Shown: in pieces, positions 11,427 through 16,967 of the stretch
How positions within the stretch are numbered: position 1 is the first letter of the stretch
Layout of the letters: each line of letters opens with the position of its first letter
Assembly (NCBI GenBank): GCA_027451885.1
Contig: DAIDHX010000125.1
Coordinates: 1 to 64,000 of the forward strand
Direction: 5' to 3'
DNA length: 64,000 nt
Origin: Planctomycetales bacterium
GTDB taxonomy: Bacteria; Planctomycetota; Planctomycetia; Isosphaerales; Isosphaeraceae
Position numbers and translations under genes: made by a program
The notes under the pieces: model-generated
What the model was told of the DNA's origin: nothing
Databases searched by the model: none
The model's input: only the letters and a program-made list of their open reading frames with translations

Positions 11427-12986
11427 TCACTTGTCGCTTTCGAGCTCCAGCAGTGCCAGCTTTTGCTCATCGATGACGCTTTCCACCGAGCTGATGAAGA
11501 GGATCCCGTTGTGGACGCAGAACGCCAGGCCAATCTCGCGCAGCAGCAGGCGCAACGAGTCCTTGAGCGGGATGTCCTCGAGCTCGATCGTCACCGTCGA
11601 GCTCAGGGACTTCTCGGCTTCCGACAGACCGATGGGATCGATGTAGATGGCGAGCGGAGCCGCCTTCGAGTCCCTGGCGGCCTGTTTGATCCGCTTGAGC
11701 ACGTCCTCGAGCGGGGTTTCGGCGGCGAAGGAGAGCGTGATCGGCGTGTCGAGGAACTTCCAGACAGCCTGGCTGCGGGGACTCCTGTCGAGCTTCCGAA
11801 GCAAGGCGTCGTTTCTTGCGACCCGGATAGGCCAGTATTCACTGTCATCCTGCGCGGCGTTTGGATTCGAGCCGCCGGCGTTGTTGGAACCACCCGTCAT
11901 GGGCACGCTGGCAGCAACACCCATCGACCCGGGCGACGGGCCCTGGCCTCCCTGCTGATTGGCCGCGGGGGGCGCGTTCGCGGTTACGGGATTTGCCGCT
12001 GGGGAGCGTGGGCCGCTTCCGGCCTGGGGCGCGCCTGCGTTCCGGCCCTGGGGCGGGTTCCCCTGGAGCGGCGCGGCCGAGAAGAACTCGCCCGCGGCGG
12101 AGGCCGCCAGCATCCCTGCCGCGCAGATCACGATCGACGCCGGTGCGATCAGGAGCTTGACTCGGGTCCAGTACATGGCGGTAAGAACTCCCTGTGCGAG
12201 TGTGGTGACGGAGTACGAGAGAATGGCGGTGGAAGCCGCGTGAAAGCCGAGCGTGGCCTTGGCCGCGGCCATGGCGGCGGATTCGAGCGTTTGCGGAACG
12301 GCGGCCTGGGATGCAGGAAGCTCGAGCTGCGAGCCGATCGCGGCGGCCGTAAGCGCGATCCCTCTGCGGGTGAGCCTGCGCGAGAGGATCGCCTTGCCGC
12401 GCGCCAGTCGCCCCTTGAGCGTGCCAGGCGGGCAGCCGAGCCGCTCAGCCGCCTGGTCGTTCGTCAGCCCTTCCAGGTAGCAGAGCACGAGCGCAGCGCG
12501 ATACCTGGCGGGCAAGCGCGCGAGCTCCGCATGCAGGCTGAGCTGGCTCTCCTCGAGCTCGCTCGAGCGCTCTTGCGATACGCCCGTACTCGAGCCGAGC
12601 ACGCCTCGATCGGCCCCTTCACGCAGTTTGCGCTCGCGCAGGGCAGCGAGCCCCCGCGCCCGCAACGCAACGCGATACGCCACGCCATAAAGCCAGTTGG
12701 CCATGAGATCGCCACGCCTGAGCGAAGCCGCCTTGCGGACCAGGATCACGAACGTCGCCTGGAACGCGTCGTCGACGTCATTGGGATCGCGGAGCAAGCG
12801 CCTGAGCACACCCAGCACCATGGGCCCGTGCCGCCGCACGAGCGCCTCGAACGCTGCCTCGTCCCGGTCGGTGGTGAACCGGGCGAGAAGCGTGGCGTCA
12901 TCCAGACCGGCCGCCGTCCCGCTGCTGAACAATCGGCCGAGCGCCGTGACCGCGATGCCCGACGCCTGGCTTCTCGGCAGGCCCAT
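11427..12986 (-). CDS. Long ECF sigma factor, paralog of the neighbouring gene
   Basis: A 519-residue paralog of the gene at 9405-11225 with the same architecture: sigma region 2 (FEALVRRHGPMVLGVLRR, DVDDAFQATFVILVRKA), region 4 (LPARYRAALVLCYLEGLTNDQ, GTLKGRLARGK), a hydrophobic helix near residue 290 (LLIAPASIVICAAGMLAASAA), a long Pro/Gly/Asn/Ala-rich linker, and an STN-like end (TPLEDVLKRIKQAA, LAIYIDPIGL, IPLKDSLRLLLREIGLAFC). The start ATG 12986 has GGAGG 8 nt upstream; ATG 13001 overlaps that site and is less likely. The two genes are same-strand neighbours about 200 nt apart, so they probably arose by tandem duplication, with the linkers diverging most. They may respond to different signals. 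Confidence 0.85.
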   Translation of the reverse strand: MGLPRSQASGIAVTALGRLFSSGTAAGLDDATLLARFTTDRDEAAFEALVRRHGPMVLGVLRRLLRDPNDVDDAFQATFVILVRKAASLRRGDLMANWLYGVAYRVALRARGLAALRERKLREGADRGVLGSSTGVSQERSSELEESQLSLHAELARLPARYRAALVLCYLEGLTNDQAAERLGCPPGTLKGRLARGKAILSRRLTRRGIALTAAAIGSQLELPASQAAVPQTLESAAMAAAKATLGFHAASTAILSYSVTTLAQGVLTAMYWTRVKLLIAPASIVICAAGMLAASAAGEFFSAAPLQGNPPQGRNAGAPQAGSGPRSPAANPVTANAPPAANQQGGQGPSPGSMGVAASVPMTGGSNNAGGSNPNAAQDDSEYWPIRVARNDALLRKLDRSPRSQAVWKFLDTPITLSFAAETPLEDVLKRIKQAARDSKAAPLAIYIDPIGLSEAEKSLSSTVTIELEDIPLKDSLRLLLREIGLAFCVHNGILFISSVESVIDEQKLALLELESDK

Positions 12987-13118
12987 ACCCTGTACCTCCA
13001 TTCCGCCGCGCCCGGTGGCGTTTGCCCCTGGCTTCAGATACTCTCGCGAGCTGCCCGGGGGGATGCGCGACTTCCGGCGAAAACCGCCACGCCGGCGCAG
13101 ATTTCAGCCGTGTCTGGC

Positions 13119-13803: not shown

Positions 13804-14009
13804 ATCCAATAGTATCCTGACCCCCCGGCCAGGGGAAGGGGCGCGGCGAAAAAACCGCGTGAAGCGGAGCAAGTTCTTCCCCTCCGGGCGCCTCGCTTCT
13901 ATGTTTCTGAGCGATCGCAACGATCGTGCTGGCCTTGTTTTAAGAAAGAGCCGCGAGCCGGGCGAGTTGACCCGTGGGCGAGGTCGAAGATTCTCAGGGA
14001 GCGGAGCGA

Positions 14010-14924
14010 TTGTCGAAGCGCCGAGGGGGACCAGGGACCGTGCACGCGTCGATCAAGGCTTATCTCGATTCACTTACGAGCGAGCAGAACGCCTCGCCGC
14101 ATACCCTGCGGAATTACACCGAGGATCTTCGGCTTTTCCAGAGCTTCCTTGATCAAGAAGCGCATGCGGGGAGCGATCCGACGCAGGTCGATCCGAGGCA
14201 ACTGCGGCGCTACTCCGCCTGGCTTTCTGGGGAGGGCTACGCGCCCAGCACGATTGCGCGGCGGCTGGCCAGCCTGCGCTCGTTCTATCGCTTTTTGAGA
14301 CGCGGCGGCCAGTGTGTCTCCGACCCCACGGCAGCGCTTCGCAACCCCAAGCAACCCAGGCGGTTGCCTCGGCTCTTGCGGGTCGACGAGGTCATCAAGC
14401 TGCTCGACGGCATCGGCATGGAAACCGAGATCGGCCTGCGCGATCGGGCGATGTTCGAGACGCTTTACGGCGGCGGTTTGCGCGTATCTGAGCTGGTCGG
14501 CCTCGATCTGCGCGACCTCGACCTGGGAGAGGGCCTGGCGCGGGTGCGCGGCAAGGGGCGTAGGGAGCGGCTCTGCCCGCTGGGAGACATGGCCTCGCGC
14601 TGCCTCGGCTACTGGGTTGCGGCTCGCAAGCCGCGGCACGCCGACGAGCCAGCCGTCTTCCTCAATCAGCGCGGGTCCCGGCTCACCACTCGCAGCGTGG
14701 GCAGGATTCTCGAACATCGCCTGCTCGTTGCCGGGCTCGTCGATCGCGCCAGCCCCCACACCCTCAGGCACAGCTTCGCCACCCATCTTCTCGACCGCGG
14801 CGCAGACCTACGCAGCGTCCAGGAATTGCTCGGCCACCGCAAATTAACCAGCACGCAAGTCTACACCCACGTCACACGCGAGCGTTTGCTGAATATCTAT
14901 CAGGGAGCACACCCACGGGTCTAA
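14010..14924 (+). CDS. xerC: XerC/XerD-type tyrosine recombinase
   Basis: Tyrosine recombinase of about 304 residues, the normal size for Xer proteins that resolve chromosome dimers at dif. The SAM-like core-binding domain spans roughly residues 10-95 (YLDSLTSEQNASPHTLRNY, LASLRSFYRFL). The catalytic domain follows with the expected residues: Arg in GGGLRVSELVGLDL, Lys in VRGKGRRERLCPL, HxxR in SPHTLRHSFATHLL, His in LLGHRKL and Tyr in TQVYTHVTRERL. The start is taken at TTG 14010, with AGGGAGCGGAG just upstream; GTG 13974 is an in-frame alternative. It stands alone on the plus strand with no mobile-element features around it, which favours the housekeeping Xer role over an integrase. Confidence 0.9.
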   Translation: MSKRRGGPGTVHASIKAYLDSLTSEQNASPHTLRNYTEDLRLFQSFLDQEAHAGSDPTQVDPRQLRRYSAWLSGEGYAPSTIARRLASLRSFYRFLRRGGQCVSDPTAALRNPKQPRRLPRLLRVDEVIKLLDGIGMETEIGLRDRAMFETLYGGGLRVSELVGLDLRDLDLGEGLARVRGKGRRERLCPLGDMASRCLGYWVAARKPRHADEPAVFLNQRGSRLTTRSVGRILEHRLLVAGLVDRASPHTLRHSFATHLLDRGADLRSVQELLGHRKLTSTQVYTHVTRERLLNIYQGAHPRV

Positions 14925-15413
14925 TTGACTCGCGGTCGGGGCGGATTCGCCCTGCTCGTCAGAGGTGCTCAAGCTCTTGCGGTCCCCGACGGACCACGGA
15001 ACAGGCGATGTGCCCAGTTCGAGCCACGCTGGCTCGCGCCCCATGCGCCCACCTTGAAGATCCCGGCCCAACCGCGATCGAGACCGAAACGCGTGGCGCG
15101 CCTTCGTACCCACAACGACCGAGCCGTTCCCTGGTTCAGGTCGCCTCGCTGACCAAATAAAGCAACCTGGGCGCCGTTTGATTCTTTTTTTTGACGGTGT
15201 TGCATCCATGACATAGTCGTTTTGAAGGAGCAACGAAACTCTGATCCCGCTCGAGCGTATGGGCATGTCGGGGGATCCGATCCCGTTGTGAACCCACGGA
15301 ATGTAGGTGACAGGCGTATCGTATCTGGAATACGATTCTTGAATATAAACGGGGCTCAGGGAAGACGGACTTCCTGGCCGGCGCAACGGCCAAGCAGAAC
15401 GTGAGAACCTCCC
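14925..15413 (+). other. Intergenic region upstream of the pseudo-receiver regulator
   Basis: No convincing coding region. Contents: a T-rich run near 15184-15192, a TTGACG hexamer at 15191-15196 with only a poor -10 partner, and the inverted repeat at 15319-15335 described separately. The region before 15000 shows no clear hairpin terminator for the upstream recombinase gene. Confidence 0.5.
15319..15335. promoter_or_regulatory. Inverted repeat TCGTAT-N5-ATACGA, possible operator
   Basis: A perfect 6-bp inverted repeat, TCGTAT then CTGGA then ATACGA, about 80 nt upstream of the ATG at 15414 in an otherwise GC-rich context. Its size and place fit a dimeric regulator binding site, but no matching -10/-35 pair is evident next to it. 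The regulator is unknown; the downstream gene has its own HTH and could bind here. Confidence 0.4.
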
Positions 15414-16967
15414 ATGCAAAAGCTACGAATTCTGATCCTTTATCCCGATGCTGCTGGCCTTGCGCTTCTGACATCGATGCTCAAGTCCCTGGGGCATACG
15501 ATTGAGGAAGCGCTCAACGACCGAGTCGCGGTTCGTCTGATGGAGCGGAATAACATCGACCTGGTCCTGGCCGGGGTCGATCCGCTGGAGTCGGACTCGC
15601 TTGAGATTCTGACGTACGTGCGGCGCAAGCATCGGGATACGCCGATGATTTTGCTGTTTCCGCGGCATCATCCCGAGCGTGCGAAGGAGGCGCTTCGGCT
15701 GGGCGCGATGGCGGTGCTCAAGTATCCGGTGCCGGCCGCGGAGCTCCGGGCGACGGTGCTGCAGGCGCTTGAGATGTCGAGCATGCGTGCTCGGCCTGAG
15801 CCGGAAGCCGCGGCGGCGGACGCAGCGCCCCAGGCTCGAGGATCAATTCCGGCCGGTGTGAACGAGCACGATCATCCGACGCATACCGCGATGCCCAACT
15901 GGTCGCAAGCCGCCGTGCCGGTGATGAATCACACCGCGCTTCCGCCGCTAGCGGCTGGCAAGATCGAGCAAATCACCCGTGAGCTTGGCATCCTGGGGCA
16001 AGATCCGGGCTGGAGGCAGGTGATCGACCTGGCGTTCACCATTGCCTCGACGCGTAGCTCGGTACTGATCGTCGGTGAGACCGGCACGGGCAAGTCGATG
16101 CTTGCCCGGCTGATTCACGCGATTGGCAATCCCCGGAGCCCGTTTGTCACGGTCTCGTGCCCGGAGCTCGCCGATGTGCTGCCGAACGCCGGCGAGGTTG
16201 GGGAATCTCCCCTTGAAGAAACCCAGGCTGCCACGAACGAATGGCTGGCCAAGCTGACATCCGCGCACGGCGGGACGCTGTATCTCGACGAGGTTGCCGC
16301 CTTGCCGCTCGAGCTCCAGCACAACCTGCTCAGGGAGTTGCAGTTCCGCGACTACGAGGCGACGGCGGGGCATTCGCTGCACATGGGCGAGGTGCGGTTC
16401 CTGATGTCGACGCGGGAGAATCTGCCGACCATGATCGAGCAGGGCCGCTTCCGGCAGGAGCTATATCACAGGGTGAGCGTGATCAGCCTGATGCTGCCGC
16501 CGTTGCGGCATCGCGGCACGGACGTCGAGCTGCTGGCCGAGAGCTTCCGTACCCGCTATGCGCAGGAATTCCGCAAGAACGTGATTGGCTTCACCCGCGA
16601 TGCGCTCGACGTGCTCCAGCGCCATGATTGGCCGGGCAACGTGCGTGAGCTTGAGGCGGCCATTCAGCGCGCTGTGGCGCTTTGCACCGGACCGCGGATC
16701 ACCTCCAACCACCTGGCGCCGATCATCAACCACAACCGCCAGGCCCGCGCCGCCGCCGGAGCGCCCAAGCCCCATCTCAAGATGGGTGTGCGACCCCTCA
16801 AGGAAGCGCTCGAGGAGCCCGAAAAGCGGATCATCATCCAGGCGCTCCAGGCCTTCAACTGGAATCGCCAGGAGACCGCACGCGTCCTCGATATCAACCG
16901 TACGACGCTGTACAAGAAGATGAAGAAGTACGGCCTCTTGATCGACGAGCCGATCTGGGTCAACTGA
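15414..16967 (+). CDS. NtrC-like AAA+ regulator with degenerate receiver and no GAFTGA
   Basis: A 517-aa protein built like an NtrC response regulator. Residues 1-120 have a CheY fold (RILILYPDAAGLALLTSMLKSLG, IDLVLAGVDPLESDSLEIL), but the phospho-acceptor Asp is Gly in the LVLAGV segment and only one acidic residue remains at the N-terminal DD site. The AAA+ domain spans about 185-410, with Walker A GETGTGKS, Walker B GGTLYLDEV and arginine-rich GRFRQELYHRV. The GAFTGA loop that binds sigma-54 is absent; the stretch is GESPLEETQAATNEW instead. The C-terminal Fis-type HTH is intact (WNRQETARVLDINRTTLYKKMKKYG). It probably acts as an unphosphorylated DNA-binding ATPase, perhaps independent of sigma-54. 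Confidence 0.87.
   Translation: MQKLRILILYPDAAGLALLTSMLKSLGHTIEEALNDRVAVRLMERNNIDLVLAGVDPLESDSLEILTYVRRKHRDTPMILLFPRHHPERAKEALRLGAMAVLKYPVPAAELRATVLQALEMSSMRARPEPEAAAADAAPQARGSIPAGVNEHDHPTHTAMPNWSQAAVPVMNHTALPPLAAGKIEQITRELGILGQDPGWRQVIDLAFTIASTRSSVLIVGETGTGKSMLARLIHAIGNPRSPFVTVSCPELADVLPNAGEVGESPLEETQAATNEWLAKLTSAHGGTLYLDEVAALPLELQHNLLRELQFRDYEATAGHSLHMGEVRFLMSTRENLPTMIEQGRFRQELYHRVSVISLMLPPLRHRGTDVELLAESFRTRYAQEFRKNVIGFTRDALDVLQRHDWPGNVRELEAAIQRAVALCTGPRITSNHLAPIINHNRQARAAAGAPKPHLKMGVRPLKEALEEPEKRIIIQALQAFNWNRQETARVLDINRTTLYKKMKKYGLLIDEPIWVN

Follow-up and report, generated by a model that had tools for sequence, protein, structure and literature searches.

The window analysed here is a stretch of 64,000 nucleotides from contig C125 in the 6.18-Mb draft genome of a Planctomycetales bacterium of the family Isosphaeraceae, whose named loci include Singulisphaera acidiphila, Aquisphaera and Paludisphaera, and it carries the gene of a putative regulator, which has a gene for an XerC/XerD-type tyrosine recombinase as its upstream neighbour (Table 1). 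When the predicted protein was compared with Pfam, it matched Response_reg at 31.9 bits (cut-off 30.2), Sigma54_activat (PF00158) at 115.7 bits (cut-off 20.2), AAA_lid_14 at 82.1 bits and HTH_8 at 62.2 bits. As a first-pass annotation of this gene had stated, Walker A (GETGTGKS), Walker B (LDE) and the Fis-type helix-turn-helix (HTH) are all present in the window protein, as are both arginine-finger positions. An AlphaFold2 (AF2) model built with 22 family sequences reached a mean pLDDT of 80.5 and a pTM of 0.52. In this model the receiver and most of the AAA+ domain are confident, the HTH is moderately so (pLDDT 74-79), the loop-1 region is weak, and the linker and residues 443-466 are disordered. 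The neighbours of the model in a Foldseek comparison were NtrX, NtrC1, NtrC4, LuxO, VpsR and FleQ, and PspF was also matched.

Table 1. Positions in the window of the regulator gene, its parts and the features upstream of it
Feature	Position	Strand	Evidence
XerC/XerD-type tyrosine recombinase, upstream neighbour of the regulator	13974..14924	+	XerC model 327.2 bits, cut-off 335.15
Upstream block CTCAGGGAAGACGGAC	15355..15370	+	Core TCANGGANGA 58 bases before the ATG
Regulator ORF, 517 aa; pseudo-receiver, AAA+ and Fis-type HTH	15414..16967	+	ATG start, TGA stop; orthologues in 43/45 Isosphaeraceae genomes
Pseudo-receiver, aa 1-121; replaced pocket residues Y10 P11, G54, F82, Y104	15414..15776	+	AF2 pLDDT 91-96 in blocks 1-120
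Codon of the acceptor residue, aa 54 (Gly)	15573..15575	+	43-orthologue alignment
Low-complexity linker, aa 122-190	15777..15983	+	22-51% identity in five pairs of relatives; pLDDT <50 at aa 128-160 and 162-175
AAA+ core and lid, aa 191-435	15984..16718	+	Pfam profiles, AF2 model, Foldseek
Walker A GETGTGKS, aa 221-228	16074..16097	+	Lys227 in 42/43 orthologues, Arg in one
Degenerate loop-1 region, aa 256-280, where ELFGHxxGAFTGA would stand; variable, often acidic	16179..16253	+	pLDDT of 69 (block 251-260) and 56 (block 261-270)
Walker B TLYLDE, aa 288-293, unaltered in the window protein	16275..16292	+	Asp292 in 27/43 orthologues
Arginine-finger segment RQELYHR, aa 347-353	16452..16472	+	R347 in 41/43 and R353 in 39/43 orthologues
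Fis-type HTH and preceding helix, aa 459-508, ...WNRQETARVLDINRTTLYKKMKKYGL	16788..16937	+	dN/dS 0-0.03
Short C-terminal tail LIDEPIWVN	16938..16964	+	Mostly conserved among 22 aligned family members

Loss of the receiver pocket and of loop 1

The acceptor aspartate of the receiver, reported as missing in the first-pass annotation, is absent from the window protein, where residue 54 is Gly, and from all 43 Isosphaeraceae orthologues (one per genome), which carry G (25), S (9), L (3), C (2), W (2) or A (2) at this position. The remainder of the pocket has been replaced as well: position 11 is Asp in 0/43 orthologues (one has a gap), position 82 is Phe in 38 and Thr in none, and at position 104, where Lys never occurs, 39 have Tyr or Phe. 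The combination expected of a phosphorylatable receiver (an acidic pair, an acceptor Asp, Thr or Ser, and Lys, at positions 11, 54, 82 and 104) was found in 0/43 family members. An Asp that lies two residues past the acceptor position in 36 of the 43 was considered as a shifted phosphorylation site and set aside, because Thr82 and Lys104 are gone too.

For comparison we assembled 42 kin rows from outside Isosphaeraceae, 38 of them loci from a search that included the peptide YKKMKKYG and four from a whole-protein search; L056 was swapped for the fuller L115, and 19 duplicate loci were dropped before counting. At the acceptor position these rows have Asp in 35, Glu in two, Thr in one and a gap in four, and the rest of the pocket is similarly kept (Asp11 in 35, Thr82 in 37 and Lys104 in 37, with four to five gaps per position). 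Sixteen more distant loci (L096-L111, from Gemmatales, other planctomycetes and Bacteroidales) were kept out of this set. Eleven Gemmatales-like or other planctomycete rows among them (L096, L099, L102-L107, L109-L111) display the reverse partial loss, with no Asp at the acceptor position and a loop that reads GAFTGA in ten and GAFAGA in L110; the five Bacteroidales rows have Asp at the acceptor position and the loop GSFTDA. In L117 (genome G041) and L095 the loop is intact and the acceptor position is Glu; G041 also has XerC adjacent and is a possible intermediate.

The GAFTGA loop of the AAA+ domain, also described as absent in the first-pass annotation, is missing from loop 1 of the window protein, where it is replaced by ...AGEVGESPLEETQAATNEW..., and was found in 0/43 orthologues. 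All 42 kin rows have a loop that fits the form GxF[TS][GDAS]A. Relocation of the loop within the window protein was ruled out, as a search of the whole protein for this form returned no match; the sole such string in the family, GAFSSA in G004, stands in the linker at residue 260, ahead of Walker A at 303. The stretch around GESPLEET, which had been put forward as the replacement, does stand where loop 1 was, but it has not been conserved as a motif in its own right. Five pairs of relatives share 24-51% identity in the loop-1 region against 64-97% in the flanking AAA+ parts, and no part of the protein changes faster than loop 1 and the linker, which rules out a conserved replacement and argues that no new contact motif has arisen there. 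Several family members outside the window's subclade (e.g. L048, L050) retain ELFG or something close to it where the old loop began and point to what looks like a stepwise loss, the order of which we infer from the sequences.

Within the source genome, PF00158 has 17 matches, and the nine others that score at least 211 bits all carry GAFTGA or GSFTGA. Our survey of loops covered these nine strong proteins and one weaker one; the six weakest matches score 20.7-34.9 bits. A second NtrC-like protein without GAFTGA, with a degenerate Walker B (FLIQEV), is encoded in the same genome at L121:2048-3589 (G000:C146) and scores 64.9 bits.

The phospho-pocket and the sigma-54 loop are thus both gone in the family. 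Their loss in 43/43 orthologues rules out a local mutation or a sequencing error, Asp-bearing relatives having been found only outside Isosphaeraceae, and what had been noticed in one gene holds for the family as sampled. Since both losses are fixed, it follows from established domain knowledge, as had been proposed for the single protein, that the regulator should be neither phosphorylated at the usual site nor able to remodel the sigma-54 holoenzyme in the known way.

Relationship to intact planctomycete activators

A whole-protein search (E <= 1e-60) yielded a single match in each of the Isosphaeraceae genomes with an orthologue, the two match rows of G061 being pieces of one frame. The two genomes without an orthologue are 68% and 77% complete, and the gene was found in all 26 genomes with at least 90% completeness and at most 5% contamination. 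When the intact protein L119 was used as query, 56 of 118 genomes of the class gave one match each at 53-100% identity, while the 62 without one, among the matches listed, include Isosphaeraceae. The best 30 of these 56 matches all carry GAFTGA, GSFTGA or GAFTSA. None of the best 25 NCBIfam models reached its cut-off against L119. A close intact orthologue was sought with L119 in the 45 Isosphaeraceae genomes as well, and the matches obtained reached 39-45% identity only (best E 7e-115), the best four of them having a different HTH; a recent duplicate beside an intact copy is unsupported by this result.

We then turned to a midpoint-rooted tree of 48 chosen rows, 17 of which were comparison rows drawn from the genome's own paralogues, other Isosphaeraceae activators, Gemmatales and Bacteroidales. 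With loop 1 removed, the family and its intact kin formed one clade with support of 99/99.6 and the family alone one with 100/100, in a tree with long branches within the set of own paralogues and also separating Gemmatales from Bacteroidales. With the HTH removed, the joint clade retained an SH-aLRT of 98.1 and the intact kin alone were poorly supported (25). Because the family shares a clade with its intact kin and the 45 Isosphaeraceae genomes gave no close intact match, we conclude from these comparisons that the gene represents an orthologous conversion and not a degenerate duplicate.

Nucleotide-binding residues, selection and genomic context

The residues of Walker A, Walker B, sensor I, the arginine finger and the receiver pocket are considered here in their catalytic roles. 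Walker B has eroded in the family, its Asp being missing in 16 of the 43 orthologues and its Glu kept in 30 and replaced by Asp in 11 and Asn in two, and the sensor-I Asn is found in 0/43; intact kin keep Walker B in 42/42 and the sensor-I Asn in 41/42. Because the Walker A Lys and the arginines are kept where Walker B and sensor I are eroded, the alignment suggests a larger role across the family for nucleotide binding and oligomer contacts than for hydrolysis; the window protein itself keeps LDE and may still hydrolyse ATP. The same counts render doubtful the idea in the first-pass annotation that the regulator uses ATP hydrolysis with another form of polymerase. Stated in full, the AAA+ ring would still be a motor that engages a sigma-70-type holoenzyme or another partner via a different surface. 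Such a motor is compatible with the intact Walker A, Walker B and arginine positions of the window protein, and PMC10274813 reports evidence that ATP binding and hydrolysis are both needed by the GAFTGA-less NtrC of Caulobacter; for the NtrC of R. capsulatus the same text reports a need for ATP binding rather than hydrolysis. The erosion of Walker B and sensor I in the family stands against a motor, as does the unconserved loop 1, which would provide no new conserved contact loop at that place. We regard ATP-driven remodelling as unlikely, and as a weaker option than a regulator that binds ATP and is not a motor.

Selection was estimated in five pairs of relatives by simple Nei-Gojobori counts, in which synonymous sites were often near saturation, and dN/dS was 0-0.03 for the HTH, 0.03-0.09 for the receiver, 0.03-0.25 for the AAA+ parts, 0.01-0.32 for the pre-HTH stretch, 0.3-1.7 for loop 1 and 0.29-0.74 for the linker (one linker value was not computable). 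This pattern indicates that the protein is functional, that loop 1 holds no conserved contact motif and that the DNA-binding end is held most tightly. The recognition helix NRTTLYK is identical in 42/42 family members that reach it, and INRTTLYKKMK is present in all of the best 30 of 56 intact kin; L117, which came from a whole-protein search, has the variant NRATLYKKMRK. Part of the HTH conservation seen in other families reflects how the loci of one search were chosen, because YKKMKKYG was among its queries, and the three whole-protein searches are free of this effect. Since the HTH is the most conserved part and both the motor loop and the signal input have been lost, the protein might be imagined as a passive competitor that occupies old enhancer or promoter sites and mainly represses, its AAA+ domain and receiver being only structural. 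A comparable role, competition with CtrA at repressed genes, is suggested for Caulobacter NtrC in PMC10274813. Bare occupancy, however, would need neither the receiver nor the AAA+ domain, both of which are under clear purifying selection, nor the Walker A Lys, which is almost invariant, and we find a purely passive role quite improbable.

In 25 of 27 distinct family loci the neighbour upstream, on the same strand as the regulator, is XerC-like, and the two loci without it (L042, L054) have less than 500 bases of upstream contig. About 224-552 bases separate the two genes in 18 family loci and about 175 bases in the two g6 loci (L112, L113). The source genome has one other member of the XerC/XerD family, with 42% identity. 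Beside intact orthologues, XerC was found in only one of 20 genomes searched (of 56), G041, where the two genes are convergent. So constant a neighbour, and the narrow gap in the g6 loci, could mean that the regulator is a DNA-binding AAA+ protein, derived from an activator, that acts together with, or regulates, the adjacent Xer recombinase, but the near absence of XerC from the surroundings of intact orthologues searched and the wider gaps in 18 loci speak against it, synteny alone is no proof of function, and we give this reading little credence. That the gene is a functionless pseudogene in progress, as the loss of several catalytic residues and a G005 member without the HTH might hint, can be dismissed almost entirely, since that member lies at a contig end, no internal stop occurs in 44 family match rows, dN/dS is far below 1 in the folded domains with no near-1 value over the HTH, and the gene persists in every one of the 26 good genomes.

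Downstream of the regulator, acetolactate synthase is encoded in 14 of the 27 distinct loci, a set in which short contigs are common. No histidine kinase was detected among the 20 neighbour proteins scanned (four from the window; three matched no family), a set that included a LuxR-type response regulator near the intact gene in L120. An ECF-type sigma factor of 524 aa with a long C-terminal extension is encoded at 11427-13001 on the minus strand of the window.

In 14 of 18 family loci, as well as in five of ten further ones, the core of the upstream block recurs 58-65 bases ahead of the start codon; it was found in 0/30 intact orthologues, for which starts are approximate. Its CANGGANG core is one that we take to resemble a CsrA site, and the source genome has eight CsrA-family genes. 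A stricter form of the block had one match in the genome, no commoner than reversed controls, and no inverted repeat was found in 581 bases around the regulator start, so that neither an autoregulatory site nor a regulon was seen. Sigma-54 promoters follow a -24/-12 consensus, and a crude, weak scan for it that demanded GG and GC returned no such promoter upstream of the window gene. The sigma-54 gene itself is present in the source genome and in 42 of 45 Isosphaeraceae genomes, the three without a match being 89%, 68% and 64% complete. Since sigma-54 persists, the loss concerns this particular regulator and has left the sigma factor in place.

Mode of action and comparison with known systems

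On this evidence we consider it probable that the protein is an orphan regulator with a pseudo-receiver, which binds DNA, probably ATP as well, and works at promoters that do not depend on sigma-54, with no sigma-54 remodelling. In an ancestor of Isosphaeraceae, a widespread planctomycete NtrC/AtoC-like sigma-54 activator would have ceased two-component, sigma-54-dependent activation, and the converted protein would have been retained as a DNA-binding regulator at promoters read by a sigma-70-type polymerase, the use of sigma-70 promoters being suggested by analogy with relatives described below. Its nearly frozen HTH would bind the ancestral sites, and the AAA+ domain would bind ATP, with the arginine-finger interface serving as an oligomerisation scaffold rather than as part of a motor. 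The pseudo-receiver, which the model shows as folded and which purifying selection maintains, would take no phosphate and could offer a surface for dimerisation or for a partner or ligand. The output may be activation or repression, through contact or occupancy, and would proceed without ATP-driven sigma-54 remodelling.

A bolder and more tentative version extends this regulator of non-sigma-54 promoters to the family as a whole, which would have turned a sigma-54 motor switched on by phosphorylation into a regulator that takes no phosphate, is bound to ATP, probably without hydrolysing it, and has the same DNA target, passed the old regulon to sigma-70 polymerase and left intermediates among living genera. 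Partial states do occur among family members, in which ELFG is kept with GAFTGA lost and Walker B is kept or lost. Together with the intact orthologues elsewhere, these states form a natural series in which to follow how a sigma-54 activator changes its role and whether its regulon moved to sigma-70. Because both switches are lost yet the DNA-binding end is almost unchanged in the family, the regulator has probably come to control genes by a different route, and an annotation as 'sigma-54-dependent regulator', tempting in view of the domain matches, is probably incorrect for the gene in 43 of 45 Isosphaeraceae genomes.

The planctomycete NtrC/AtoC-like regulator with a CDVN-type receiver, the intact orthologue (e.g. 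L119, L064), has the same domain order as the window protein, falls in the same clade and shares its recognition helix, but it is found outside Isosphaeraceae and keeps the loop (42/42), Walker B (42/42) and Asp54 (35/38). In other NtrC-related proteins the domains differ further: TyrR and DhaR have no receiver, the receiver of HupR is phosphorylatable, and FleQ has its own loop variant. FleQ, and likewise HupR, TyrR and DhaR (PMC3162934), are NtrC relatives, as is the window protein, and the latter three are given as sigma-70 dependent with a defective GAFTGA in that paper. The one paper found that mentions both GAFTGA and Planctomycetes (PMC12316311) keeps only GAFTGA sequences and so excludes proteins of the present kind. 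Our literature search, which covered open-access papers with subscription papers mostly outside it, returned no work on this protein group by title or abstract start among the matches listed.

GAFTGA-less relatives of NtrC are already known. The NtrC proteins of Rhodobacter capsulatus and Caulobacter crescentus have the NtrC architecture with loop 1 lost, as in the window protein, and are reported to act at sigma-70 promoters; they keep the receiver Asp, which contributes to activation, and have the kinase NtrB (PMC10274813). The window family differs in having lost the phospho-pocket entirely, and a kinase was not seen among the neighbours scanned. VpsR of Vibrio cholerae likewise combines a receiver and an AAA+ domain without GAFTGA (PMC3162934, PMC10274813), and its structure (PDB 7v2b) ranked 12-13 in the Foldseek comparison with the window-protein model. 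Its sigma-54 dependence is doubted in PMC3162934, and for a V. cholerae protein printed as 'VspR', which we take to be VpsR, phosphorylation is described as not needed in PMC10274813. VpsR differs from the window protein in that it keeps the aspartyl site (PMC10274813) and binds c-di-GMP, according to the title of entry 7v2b. The NtrC and VpsR cases described in PMC10274813 thus retain the phosphorylation site, and what is new here is the joint loss of input switch and output loop, a state that is fixed in one family as sampled. The window protein resembles its GAFTGA-less relatives in output and, because its whole phospho-pocket is missing, goes further than they do in the loss of input.
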